Positions 8,752-15,512 of a stretch of 64,000 bases of DNA are shown one piece after another. Each line of letters opens with the position of its first letter. The first letter of the stretch is position 1. The position numbers and the translations under genes were made by a program. Source of the DNA: Geminocystis herdmanii PCC 6308 (GTDB lineage Bacteria > Cyanobacteriota > Cyanobacteriia > Cyanobacteriales > Cyanobacteriaceae); NCBI RefSeq assembly GCF_000332235.1, contig NZ_CM001775.1:1308382-1372381 (forward strand), in the 5' to 3' direction. The notes under the pieces are model-generated. The model was given only the letters and a program-made list of their open reading frames with translations. It was not told the DNA's origin and did not search any database.

Positions 8752-10407
8752 ATGATTATCGCCAGTAGATATGATGTTATCCAAAGTCTTGGTAGTGGCG
8801 GTTTTGGGGATACTTTTTTAGCTAAAGATACTCAAATGCCGTCAGGAAAACAAGTAGTTATCAAACGTCTTAAACCTGCTCATCAGAATAACATTTCGAT
8901 CGAGCTAATTCAAGGATTATTCGAGAAAGAAGCGAAGGTATTAGAAGAATTAGGGCAAAATTGCTCTCAAATACCCACTTTATACGCTTATTTCACTGAA
9001 AATGAAGAATTTTATCTTGTGCAGGAATATATCGAAGGGAAAAGTTTAGCGGAATTAGGGGCAATTAGTAGCGCCCAGTGTGAATCAATTTTGTCATCTT
9101 TACTCAATACCCTTAAATATATCCATAGCAAAAACATCATTCATCGAGACATCAAACCAGAAAATATTATTATTCGTGACTCTGATAAATTGCCCGTCTT
9201 AATCGATTTTGGCGCAGTGAAAGAAAGTATGGGGGCGGTAAGTTTAAGTAGTGGCTCAACGGTAAGCTCTGTAATCGTTGGTACGAGAGGATTTATCCCT
9301 CCAGAGCAAAGCACGGGAAGAACGGTTTTTAGTAGTGACTTGTACGCCTTGAGCTTAACCATGATTTACAGTTTAACAGGAAAGTATCCGATCGAGATTC
9401 CCAATAATAACATCACCGGAGAATTAGACTGGCAAAGCTATATCCCCAATTTGCCCTCAAATTTAAAGCTAGTATTAGAAAAAGCCTCGAAAATCGATTT
9501 AAGTCAAAGGTATCCTACTTCTCAAGCTATGTATGAAGCCTTACACATGAGCCAGATTAATACAGTGGCGGTTGTACCTCCTGTCAACAATATTGATTTA
9601 TCAAAACCCACTAACTCTCATTCATCCCCAACGGTATTAATTCCCAATCCTGCCAGTCAACCCGTTAATAATACACATTCCGTTAATTACCCTATTAACA
9701 CACCACAAACTAATATTAATCATAATCCTAGTAATAATTCTTCTAATAATAATTTGATAATTACCCTAGTGACGAGTTTATTCGTAGCATTGGCAGTGTC
9801 TGGGGCGTTTTTAATTAGTCAACACATGAAAGAAACTCAAGAAAAATTAGCCATTATTGAAAAAGAGAAAGAAGACATTGAAAAAGAGAAACAAGAAATG
9901 GAGGCAAAATTAGCTAAAGAAAATAATCAACAACAAAAAATAGAATCTTTCACAAATGAGGTAAAAAATAATTCTGTTGCACCAAATAATCCTATTAATC
10001 CTGTTTCAACTCATTCGATTAATCAACAAGAAGCATTCAATATTATTCAAAAGTGGTATGATGCTAAACCTCGTATTTTTGGTGGTGAATTTAATCAGTA
10101 TCTAGTACAAGAATTAACCACAGGAAAACTATATAATGATACTACTAAATATGATGGATCGATGAATTGGCTCATCAATAATAATTGTTATTATGATTAT
10201 CAGTATTCTAATATTGATAATGTAATTTCTTTTAATAATAGTGGTACTAGACCAAGTTTAACTGTAATAGTTTCAGAAAAATTAGCTTTACATGGTTCAA
10301 GTAGTGCAGGTTGCAATGGTAAGTATAAAAGTTATTCTAAACCAGTTACTTATTGGTTTGAAAAAGAGAATGGTAACTGGAAAATTTATAATTACGAAGT
10401 AAAATAA
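8752..10407 (+). CDS. Membrane Ser/Thr kinase with C-terminal ARC6/IMS-like domain
   Basis: 551 aa. Kinase domain at residues 1-270: glycine loop LGSGGFGDTF, Lys38 in VVIKRL, catalytic HRDIKPEN (Asp133) and Asp152 in IDFGAVK. An Asn/Pro-rich linker precedes a single membrane span (about 333-355, LVTSLFVALAVSGAFLIS), then a Lys/Glu coiled coil (KEKEDIEKEKQEMEAKL), then a C-terminal domain starting AFNIIQKWYDAKPRIFGGEF and ending YWFEKENGNWKIYNYEV that resembles the DUF4101/IMS domain of ARC6-type proteins. Topology: kinase in the cytoplasm, IMS-like domain outside. Starts 2 bp upstream of an exported beta-lactamase-like hydrolase gene, so the pair is probably an operon. Paralogous to the split gene at 13856. 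Confidence 0.9.
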   Translation: MIIASRYDVIQSLGSGGFGDTFLAKDTQMPSGKQVVIKRLKPAHQNNISIELIQGLFEKEAKVLEELGQNCSQIPTLYAYFTENEEFYLVQEYIEGKSLAELGAISSAQCESILSSLLNTLKYIHSKNIIHRDIKPENIIIRDSDKLPVLIDFGAVKESMGAVSLSSGSTVSSVIVGTRGFIPPEQSTGRTVFSSDLYALSLTMIYSLTGKYPIEIPNNNITGELDWQSYIPNLPSNLKLVLEKASKIDLSQRYPTSQAMYEALHMSQINTVAVVPPVNNIDLSKPTNSHSSPTVLIPNPASQPVNNTHSVNYPINTPQTNINHNPSNNSSNNNLIITLVTSLFVALAVSGAFLISQHMKETQEKLAIIEKEKEDIEKEKQEMEAKLAKENNQQQKIESFTNEVKNNSVAPNNPINPVSTHSINQQEAFNIIQKWYDAKPRIFGGEFNQYLVQELTTGKLYNDTTKYDGSMNWLINNNCYYDYQYSNIDNVISFNNSGTRPSLTVIVSEKLALHGSSSAGCNGKYKSYSKPVTYWFEKENGNWKIYNYEVK

Positions 10408-13855: not shown

Positions 13856-14746
13856 ATGGTAAGTTCGATCGAAACTAGATACAACATCATTAAAAGTTTA
13901 GGTAGCGGTGGCTTTGGGGATACATTTTTAGCTCAAGATTTACAGATGCCTTCGGGAAGACAGGTTGTCATAAAAAAACTCAAACCCCTTCATCAGAATA
14001 ATATTTCGATCGAGCTAATTCAAGGATTATTCGAGAGAGAAGCGAAGGTATTAGAAGAATTAGGACAGAATTGCTCTCAAATACCTACTCTATACGCTTA
14101 TTTCACTGAAAATGAAGAATTTTATCTTGTGCAGGAATATATCGAAGGGAAAAGTTTAGCGGAATTAGGGGCAATTAGTAGCTCCCAGTGTGAATCAATT
14201 TTGTCATCCTTACTTAATACCCTTAAATATATCCATAGCAAAAACATCATTCACCGAGACATCAAACCAGAAAATATTATTATTCGTGACTCCGATAAAT
14301 TGCCCGTCTTAATCGATTTTGGTGCAGTCAAAGAAAGTATGGGAGCTGTAAGTTTAAGTAGCGGTTCAACGGTAAGCTCTGTAATCGTTGGTACGAGAGG
14401 ATTTATCCCCCCTGAGCAAAGCACGGGAAGAACGGTTTTTAGTAGCGACTTGTACGCCTTGAGCTTAACCATGATTTACAGCTTAACAGGAAAGTATCCG
14501 ATCGAACTCCCGAATAATAACATCACGGGAGAATTAGACTGGCAAAGCTATATCCCTAATTTGCCCTCAAATTTAAGGCTAGTATTGGAAAAAGCCTCGA
14601 AAATCGATTTAAGTCAAAGGTATCCTACTTCTCAAGCTATGTATGAAGCCTTACACATGAGCCAAATTAATACTATGGCGGTTGTGCCTCCTGTCAATAA
14701 TATTGACTTATCAAAACCCACTATACTTGGCGAGGGTATAACTTGA
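13856..14746 (+). CDS. Ser/Thr kinase domain, 5' half of a split gene
   Basis: 296 aa containing a complete kinase domain: LGSGGFGDTF, VVIKKL, HRDIKPEN and IDFGAVK are all present, nearly identical to kinase 1. The frame ends in TGA at 14744-14746 within a 104-bp inserted element (14724-14827). Without the insert it would continue into the membrane span, coiled coil and C-terminal domain now encoded at 14830-15512. As it stands it would give a soluble kinase lacking its membrane anchor and outer domain. Opens MVSSIETRYNI, unlike kinase 1 (MIIASRYDVI). Confidence 0.85.
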   Translation: MVSSIETRYNIIKSLGSGGFGDTFLAQDLQMPSGRQVVIKKLKPLHQNNISIELIQGLFEREAKVLEELGQNCSQIPTLYAYFTENEEFYLVQEYIEGKSLAELGAISSSQCESILSSLLNTLKYIHSKNIIHRDIKPENIIIRDSDKLPVLIDFGAVKESMGAVSLSSGSTVSSVIVGTRGFIPPEQSTGRTVFSSDLYALSLTMIYSLTGKYPIELPNNNITGELDWQSYIPNLPSNLRLVLEKASKIDLSQRYPTSQAMYEALHMSQINTMAVVPPVNNIDLSKPTILGEGIT

Positions 14747-14827
14747 GTTTGGTGAAGGTAGGCAAAAGGCAAGTAGGCAAAAGGCAACTGTACATTTTGC
14801 AACATCAGATTATAACCTTGATGAGTA
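14724..14827. mobile_element. 104-bp MITE-like insertion with TA target duplication
   Basis: Compared with kinase 1 (cccactaactctcattcatc), this locus reads cccacTA, insert, TAactctaattcatc. The insert starts TACTTGGCGAGGGTATAA (with the flanking TA) and ends TTATAACCTTGATGAGTA: with the TA included, the two ends are imperfect inverted repeats matching at 15 of 20 positions. A TA duplication is typical of IS630/Tc1-mariner-type elements. The inside has a doubled aggcaaaaggcaagt motif and no gene. Insert plus duplication is 106 bp, which shifts the frame by one. Confidence 0.75.
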
Positions 14828-14829
14828 TA

Positions 14830-15512
14830 ACTCTAATTCATCCCCAACGGTATTAATTCCCAATCCTGCGAGTCAACCAACAATAAACCCTAGTGGCATT
14901 AACCAAAATCCTGTCAGTAATCCTCAAAACAATAATATTTTAGTAATTATAATTACGGCTTTATTAGTGGCGTTGGGAGTATCAGGAGGTTTTTTGATAG
15001 TACAACAAAGGGCTCAAACTCAAGCAAAATTTGAAGCTATGGAGAAAGAAAAAGAGGAAGCTGAAGCTAAATTAGCCGATGAACAAAAAAAACGAGAGGA
15101 AGAAGAAGTTAAACGGCAAGAATCAGAAAAAATGAGGTTAGAAGCTGAAAAAGAGAGGGCTAAAGCCGAAGAATTACGCCGTCAAGCCGAAATTAAAGCA
15201 CAATCTCAACCTAAAACCATTGTAGTTGATCCATCTAGTATTGTAGAAAATTATACTTCTTCTTCTCCATCTATAGCATGGCAACCTACCTGCGGTGATA
15301 GTTGGGATAGTTATAGTCAATGGTGGGCTGTCAAGGGATCAAAATCCGCTTTAAGTATAGTTAAAAATAATTATTGTGGGGATGCTTTAGTTGTTAAAGG
15401 AGAAACTCAAGTTGCTAGTTTTAAATCAGAAAGCGCAGCGTGGAGTTTTGCCAATAGTTTAAGTGCTGTTTCTGGTTATGATTTTTGGGTTAAAAAAAGT
15501 GATCGTCGCTAA
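14830..15512 (+). pseudogene. 3' half of split kinase 2: membrane span, coiled coil, C-terminal domain
   Basis: In the frame restored by removing the insert, the sequence continues NSSPTVLIPNPASQP as in kinase 1, then a membrane span (LVIIITALLVALGVSGGFLIV), a long Glu/Lys/Arg coiled coil, and a C-terminal domain with CGDSWDSYSQWWAVKG, NNYCGDALV and a WVKKS end, unrelated to the IMS-like domain of kinase 1. The first usable ATG is at 14967, giving a 181-aa membrane protein if it is translated alone. Whether it is expressed cannot be told. Confidence 0.75.

Follow-up and report, generated by a model that had tools for sequence, protein, structure and literature searches.

In Geminocystis herdmanii PCC 6308, the gene for a Ser/Thr protein kinase, here called kinase 2, is interrupted by a 104-bp MITE that lies between the segments encoding the kinase domain and a hydrophobic stretch. 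The explanation that we favor, at a probability of about 0.93, is a recent cut-and-paste insertion of the MITE, served in trans by an IS630 transposase, with loss of the anchored kinase. Transposition would have placed the MITE into a TA inside kinase 2, duplicating this TA, with the transposase presumably provided by an ISAcma14-like IS630 (Tc1/mariner-type) element that has the same ends. Translation would then halt seven codons into the MITE, and the cell would lose the membrane-anchored kinase along with its outer tail, retaining at best a soluble 296-residue kinase domain. This reading builds on what is directly observed: a 104-bp element that has many copies and is flanked by a doubled TA, sites that are empty, a stop in the kinase frame, and ends in common with IS630 elements.

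The window, i.e., the whole 64,000-nucleotide stretch that was analyzed, contains kinase 2 and an intact paralogue, kinase 1. Their features, in window positions, are as follows:

8752 to 10407, plus strand: kinase 1, the intact paralogue, with an ARC6-like_IMS tail (ORF; Pfam; alignment)
13856 to 14746, plus strand: 5' part of kinase 2 (ORF; PF00069, E 1e-35; translation)
14722 to 14723, no strand: left TA, the target site (a single TA in four intact homologues)
14724 to 14827, plus strand: the 104-bp MITE (29 near-identical copies, 15 of them identical)
14724 to 14747, plus strand: left terminal inverted repeat (16/24 positions against the other end; matches IS ends)
14759 to 14787, plus strand: repeat core (sequence; length variants; core-only matches)
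14804 to 14827, minus strand: right terminal inverted repeat (comparison of both ends)
14828 to 14829, no strand: right TA, the target site duplicate (sequence; alignment with homologues)
14829 to 15512, plus strand: 3' part of kinase 2, in a frame other than that of the 5' part (translation; match to relatives)

An earlier note on this DNA had placed a 104-bp element with a TA duplication at 14724-14827, and these coordinates are right to the base, with TA on either side. The note had defined the insert against the paralogue at 8752; in that alignment, a clean 106-column gap faces a single TA of kinase 1 (9612-9613), the empty site. The inverted ends, described as imperfect, pair at 16 of 24 positions when compared end to end, and the left repeat with its preceding TA resembles the ends of ISAcma14-like IS630 elements. 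The frame arithmetic of the note is also borne out: the net insert of 106 bp causes a +1 shift, the frame that starts at 13856 stops at TGA 14744-14746, inside the MITE, and removal of the insert (the flanks were joined by script) restores one frame of 516 aa from 13856 to 15512. The 5' product comprises a complete Ser/Thr kinase domain (PF00069, 123.9 bits vs the family cut-off of 31.7) followed by seven MITE-coded residues, ILGEGIT; as the note had it, the domain is whole and is severed from the hydrophobic segment and the tail. The 3' part encodes a linker, the hydrophobic segment (approximately 14937-15002, placed by eye), a charged coil and a C-terminal tail.

The MITE has no transposase gene, the longest of its six frames spanning 36 codons. 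Its core contains two copies of the TAGGCAAAAGGCAAG unit, the second lacking the final base; the units are composed of AGGCAAA-like heptamers, and comparable short tracts are present in other cyanobacteria. When the element is taken with both TA dinucleotides (14722-14829), each strand has one open frame of 36 codons; correctly phased insertions can thus make fused reading frames.

The MITE-like nature of the insert, proposed in the earlier note, is upheld by the doubled TA, by the empty sites and by many near-identical copies, which the note had suggested searching for and which rule out a chance feature. The genome has at least 41 matches at E<=0.001, and at least 29 of these are full-length at 96-100% identity (40 of 117 first-look candidates were scored). 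Over the 104 bp, 15 of the 29 copies are identical, one differs at one position, two at three and eleven at four; the kinase 2 copy belongs to the identical set, being the same as 14 others. Because of this identity, and because the rest of the gene has no other stop or shift, the insertion is probably recent. TA flanks 28 of the 29 copies on both sides, the exception (L025) having GA on the left. The flanks of the copies are unlike, except in L012, L015 and L016, which share an insertion point within a host element that is itself repeated. These three represent the same nested insertion, found at three places, inside a repeated ORF that is transposase-like by eye and has only a weak UPF0236 match; the MITE apparently spread together with this repeated host.

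Older family members are shorter or further diverged. The 40 end pairs reduce to 15 distinct MITE-family sequences of 92-108 bp, TA included, and length differences of 14-15 bp among close members map to the repeat core. One older copy, 81% identical and with both ends recognizable, is found at 1308105-1308211 of the genome contig, at least 171 bases before the window start. Outside this genome, the element was matched in 16 of 60 relatives and, among the matches listed, mostly by the core only. Two relatives, G011 and G008, contain 106-bp relatives of the element that are identical to each other (L048 and L049), near flanks included; such identity in two species points to an old shared insertion. 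A scan of genome contigs with the end pattern gave three loci, including one in Geminocystis sp. GBBB08, and a scan of viral sequences with the exact MITE pattern gave no match. One further end-pattern match (L128), in a Desulfobacteria MAG with no transposase seen, is probably due to chance.

Empty sites, which the earlier note had proposed to seek in sister strains, come from three sources: the paralogue, other species and the site of another MITE copy in the same genome. In the alignment, kinase 1 and the homologues from G001 (same genus), G011 and G008 (both same family) each have a single TA, and the 106-column insert is unique to kinase 2. The homologues that lack the insert are open over 501 (G001), 498 (G011) and 498 aa (G008); a fifth homologue, from G002, ends at a contig edge, yet is open across the insertion region. 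Elsewhere in the genome, the MITE copy L010 occupies one IS630 copy and is absent from three others (L076, L077, L079).

Once flanks are joined, 13 of the 29 copies are located within ORFs of 100 aa or more. If the three nested copies that share a site in the repeated host are scored as one, the tally is 11 of 27, vs 65% (3143/4835) of the remaining TA sites across those stretches (binomial p 0.014). Among ten one-sided host pieces searched against Pfam, six exceeded a family cut-off, one had a sub-threshold match only and three had none; the families hit are PemK/MazF-like, FG-GAP, ABC transporter, primase zinc finger, AAA_5 and type I restriction R subunit.

The MITE ends are shared with autonomous IS630 elements of an ISAcma14-like group, so named after the annotation of one plasmid record (L160). 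A scan for the left MITE end picked out L129, an IS630-like element from a Pseudomonadota MAG, in which 33-nt ends with 76% complementarity, 1163 bp apart, enclose a broken DDE_3 transposase (E 2.9e-8). Cyanobacteria have relatives of this element: of 291 genomes from the order, 64 gave a match at E<=0.001, and for 14 of these the match reached E<1e-20. Paired TATACT ends are present at nine of the 16 close transposase loci (L129-L144); the seven loci without a pair include some that end at contig edges. None of the 15 distant transposase loci (L145-L159) has such paired ends. Among three plasmid hits, L162 has paired TATACT ends, L161 a weak pair and L160 none by this search. In sets of IS ends picked by hand, the MITE ends match 15 ISAcma14-like ends from eight loci at 16-24 of 26 positions, whereas ten ends from other IS630 types agree at 10-13 of 26. 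After shuffling, 16/26 is reached in 0.8% and 20/26 in 0.005% of cases.

Among the points that count against the favored reading, no intact partner transposase was found, and the MITE ends pair at only 16/24. Transposase searches of this genome revealed no intact ISAcma14-like gene; MITE-type end pairs 0.6-3 kb apart were seen neither among the places listed nor in 20 stretches inspected. Among the IS630 loci of relatives (L100-L126, those of G003 being sampled from 74 matches), none clearly has TATACT ends; a further IS630 type in G003 has ends other than TATACT. The complete local IS630 copies L076-L079 (one type) and L075 (a different one) were considered as partners and set aside: their TATAGCAA ends match the MITE ends at 10-13 of 26 positions. 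Cross-mobilization by the local TATAGCAA-type IS630 may nevertheless occur. The genome does have a remnant of an ISAcma14-like element (3413180-3412998 of the genome contig, minus strand), which consists of one end and roughly 35 codons of the transposase. The remnant end, TATACTTAGCAAGGGCATAATTTGA, matches one MITE subgroup at 23/26 positions, and its codons are 78-83% identical to the transposase of L131, one of the close loci. A second IS630 copy at 3411797-3412998 cuts the remnant, and the MITE copy L010 lies within that IS630; L010 thus probably arrived after this parental copy broke. The transposase may have come from another copy, from DNA outside the assembly or from another IS630. The whole nest (3410427-3413846) combines the remnant of the presumed parent, a TATAGCAA-type IS630 and a MITE, which extends the frame of the IS transposase to 372 aa, with the start inside the MITE.

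The most likely effect of the insertion, judged from the sequence, is loss of the anchored kinase, with a soluble kinase domain kept at best. In the downstream frame of kinase 2, the first ATG, GTG or TTG is GTG 14967, within the hydrophobic segment; re-start is therefore unlikely to yield an anchored tail. This tail appears to belong to a real protein, since the coil and the hydrophobic segment match relatives and the whole region from 14967 onward finds a 42% match in G020 (residues 6-180, in an open frame of 525 aa), some portion of it being matched in 21 of 60 genomes. A Pfam search of the tail found no family over the cut-off. Its C-terminal section (15240-15512) also occurs in G020, G029 and G005, at least two in a row in G029. 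Kinase 2 has probably lost its function, yet the soluble kinase may still work, and kinase 1 may cover part of the loss. The kinase domains of the two genes are nearly identical (mostly 52-60 of 60 bases per block, lower at the start), and the kinase 1 tail differs from that of kinase 2; the matching kinase gene of relatives has an SH3_3 tail. A neighboring pair with near-identical kinase domains and unrelated tails (8752-10407 and 13856-15512) looks like a product of gene conversion or tail swapping.

Could the split be functional, an anchored sensor kinase having become a soluble kinase maintained by selection? The whole kinase domain with a stop close behind it would fit, and there is a precedent in Microcystis, where split sbp kept its binding part and cluster expression rose instead of falling (PMC11448079). 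This alternative is unlikely: the insert is young, as its identical copies attest, so that selection has hardly had time to leave a mark, the four homologues compared each keep one frame across the site, and a free domain adds little new next to the nearly identical domain of kinase 1. Far less probable is a mending of the frame by ribosomes that slip +1 at ACT TGA, which would produce a full-length kinase whose linker of some 35 residues is encoded largely by the MITE. The new frame is open from 14742 through the gene end, and with purine-rich GAGGG a few nucleotides 5' of ACT TGA the layout resembles the prfB shift site. Re-pairing from ACU to CUU is poor, however, the room for the shift is a single codon, from TAA 14739-14741 in the new frame to TGA 14744-14746 in the old, and all copies of the MITE have this sequence at their end, which was thus not shaped by kinase 2. 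If such a shift did take place, the MITE would bring along, in its end, a weak recoding site that makes its own insertions less damaging. Repair of the frame through loss of repeat units was rejected because the TGA precedes the repeats.

The idea that the insert is a fixed repeat (CRISPR-like, REP-like or regulatory), arisen through replication slippage or recombination and not mobile, is scarcely credible. The core does occur alone as a short repeat in many cyanobacteria, and the RNA fold of the element is somewhat more stable than those of shuffles (z -2.45 and -2.87); against this, the 29 copies share the same borders, TA is doubled and the termini are like those of transposons. A non-mobile repeat is refuted by the empty sites, where TA is single. 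The case adds to the record of Geminocystis-type cyanobacteria a MITE family that looks active, together with the transposon group to which its ends belong and a relative date given by the nested elements. For annotators, kinase 2 is better treated as a broken copy than as a natural soluble kinase.

Disruption of genes by MITEs is a known kind of event in cyanobacteria, already in print (PMC3542288, PMC11448079 and PMC10969869); in the literature searched, which lies mostly outside subscription journals, no description of the 104-bp family in Geminocystis was found. In Anabaena sp. 90, 15 of 147 MITEs break genes, and the MITEs had no matching IS in that genome (PMC3542288). In Microcystis PCC 7806, a 187-nt MITE that breaks sbp is tied to ISL3 and has 8-nt repeats (PMC11448079). 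Like these MITEs, the Geminocystis element is short and multicopy, has inverted ends and no gene of its own, doubles its target and breaks some genes; unlike them, it has ends of the IS630, TA-inserting type. The pairing of an orphan MITE with a decayed IS630 remnant may help to explain partnerless cyanobacterial MITEs such as those reported for Anabaena sp. 90 (PMC3542288).

Nezha, too, is described as a cyanobacterial MITE. BrickBuilt of Porphyromonas gingivalis, a MITE with a minisatellite of 23-nt units, lies always between genes (PMC4596501); the Geminocystis MITE likewise has a repeat inside it, but of 15-bp units made of heptamers, and 13 of its 29 copies are in ORFs. ISY100 of Synechocystis, an IS630/Tc1-mariner element, inserts nearly always at TA, and its mini-elements with 30 bp per end work like the full element (PMC2170065); the likeness lies in the transposon type, the TA target and the mobility of short mini-elements. 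The ISAcma14-like IS630 elements are about 1.1-1.2 kb long, with TATACT...CATAA.TTG ends and TA flanks: the MITE matches their ends and differs from them in having a repeat core and no transposase gene.
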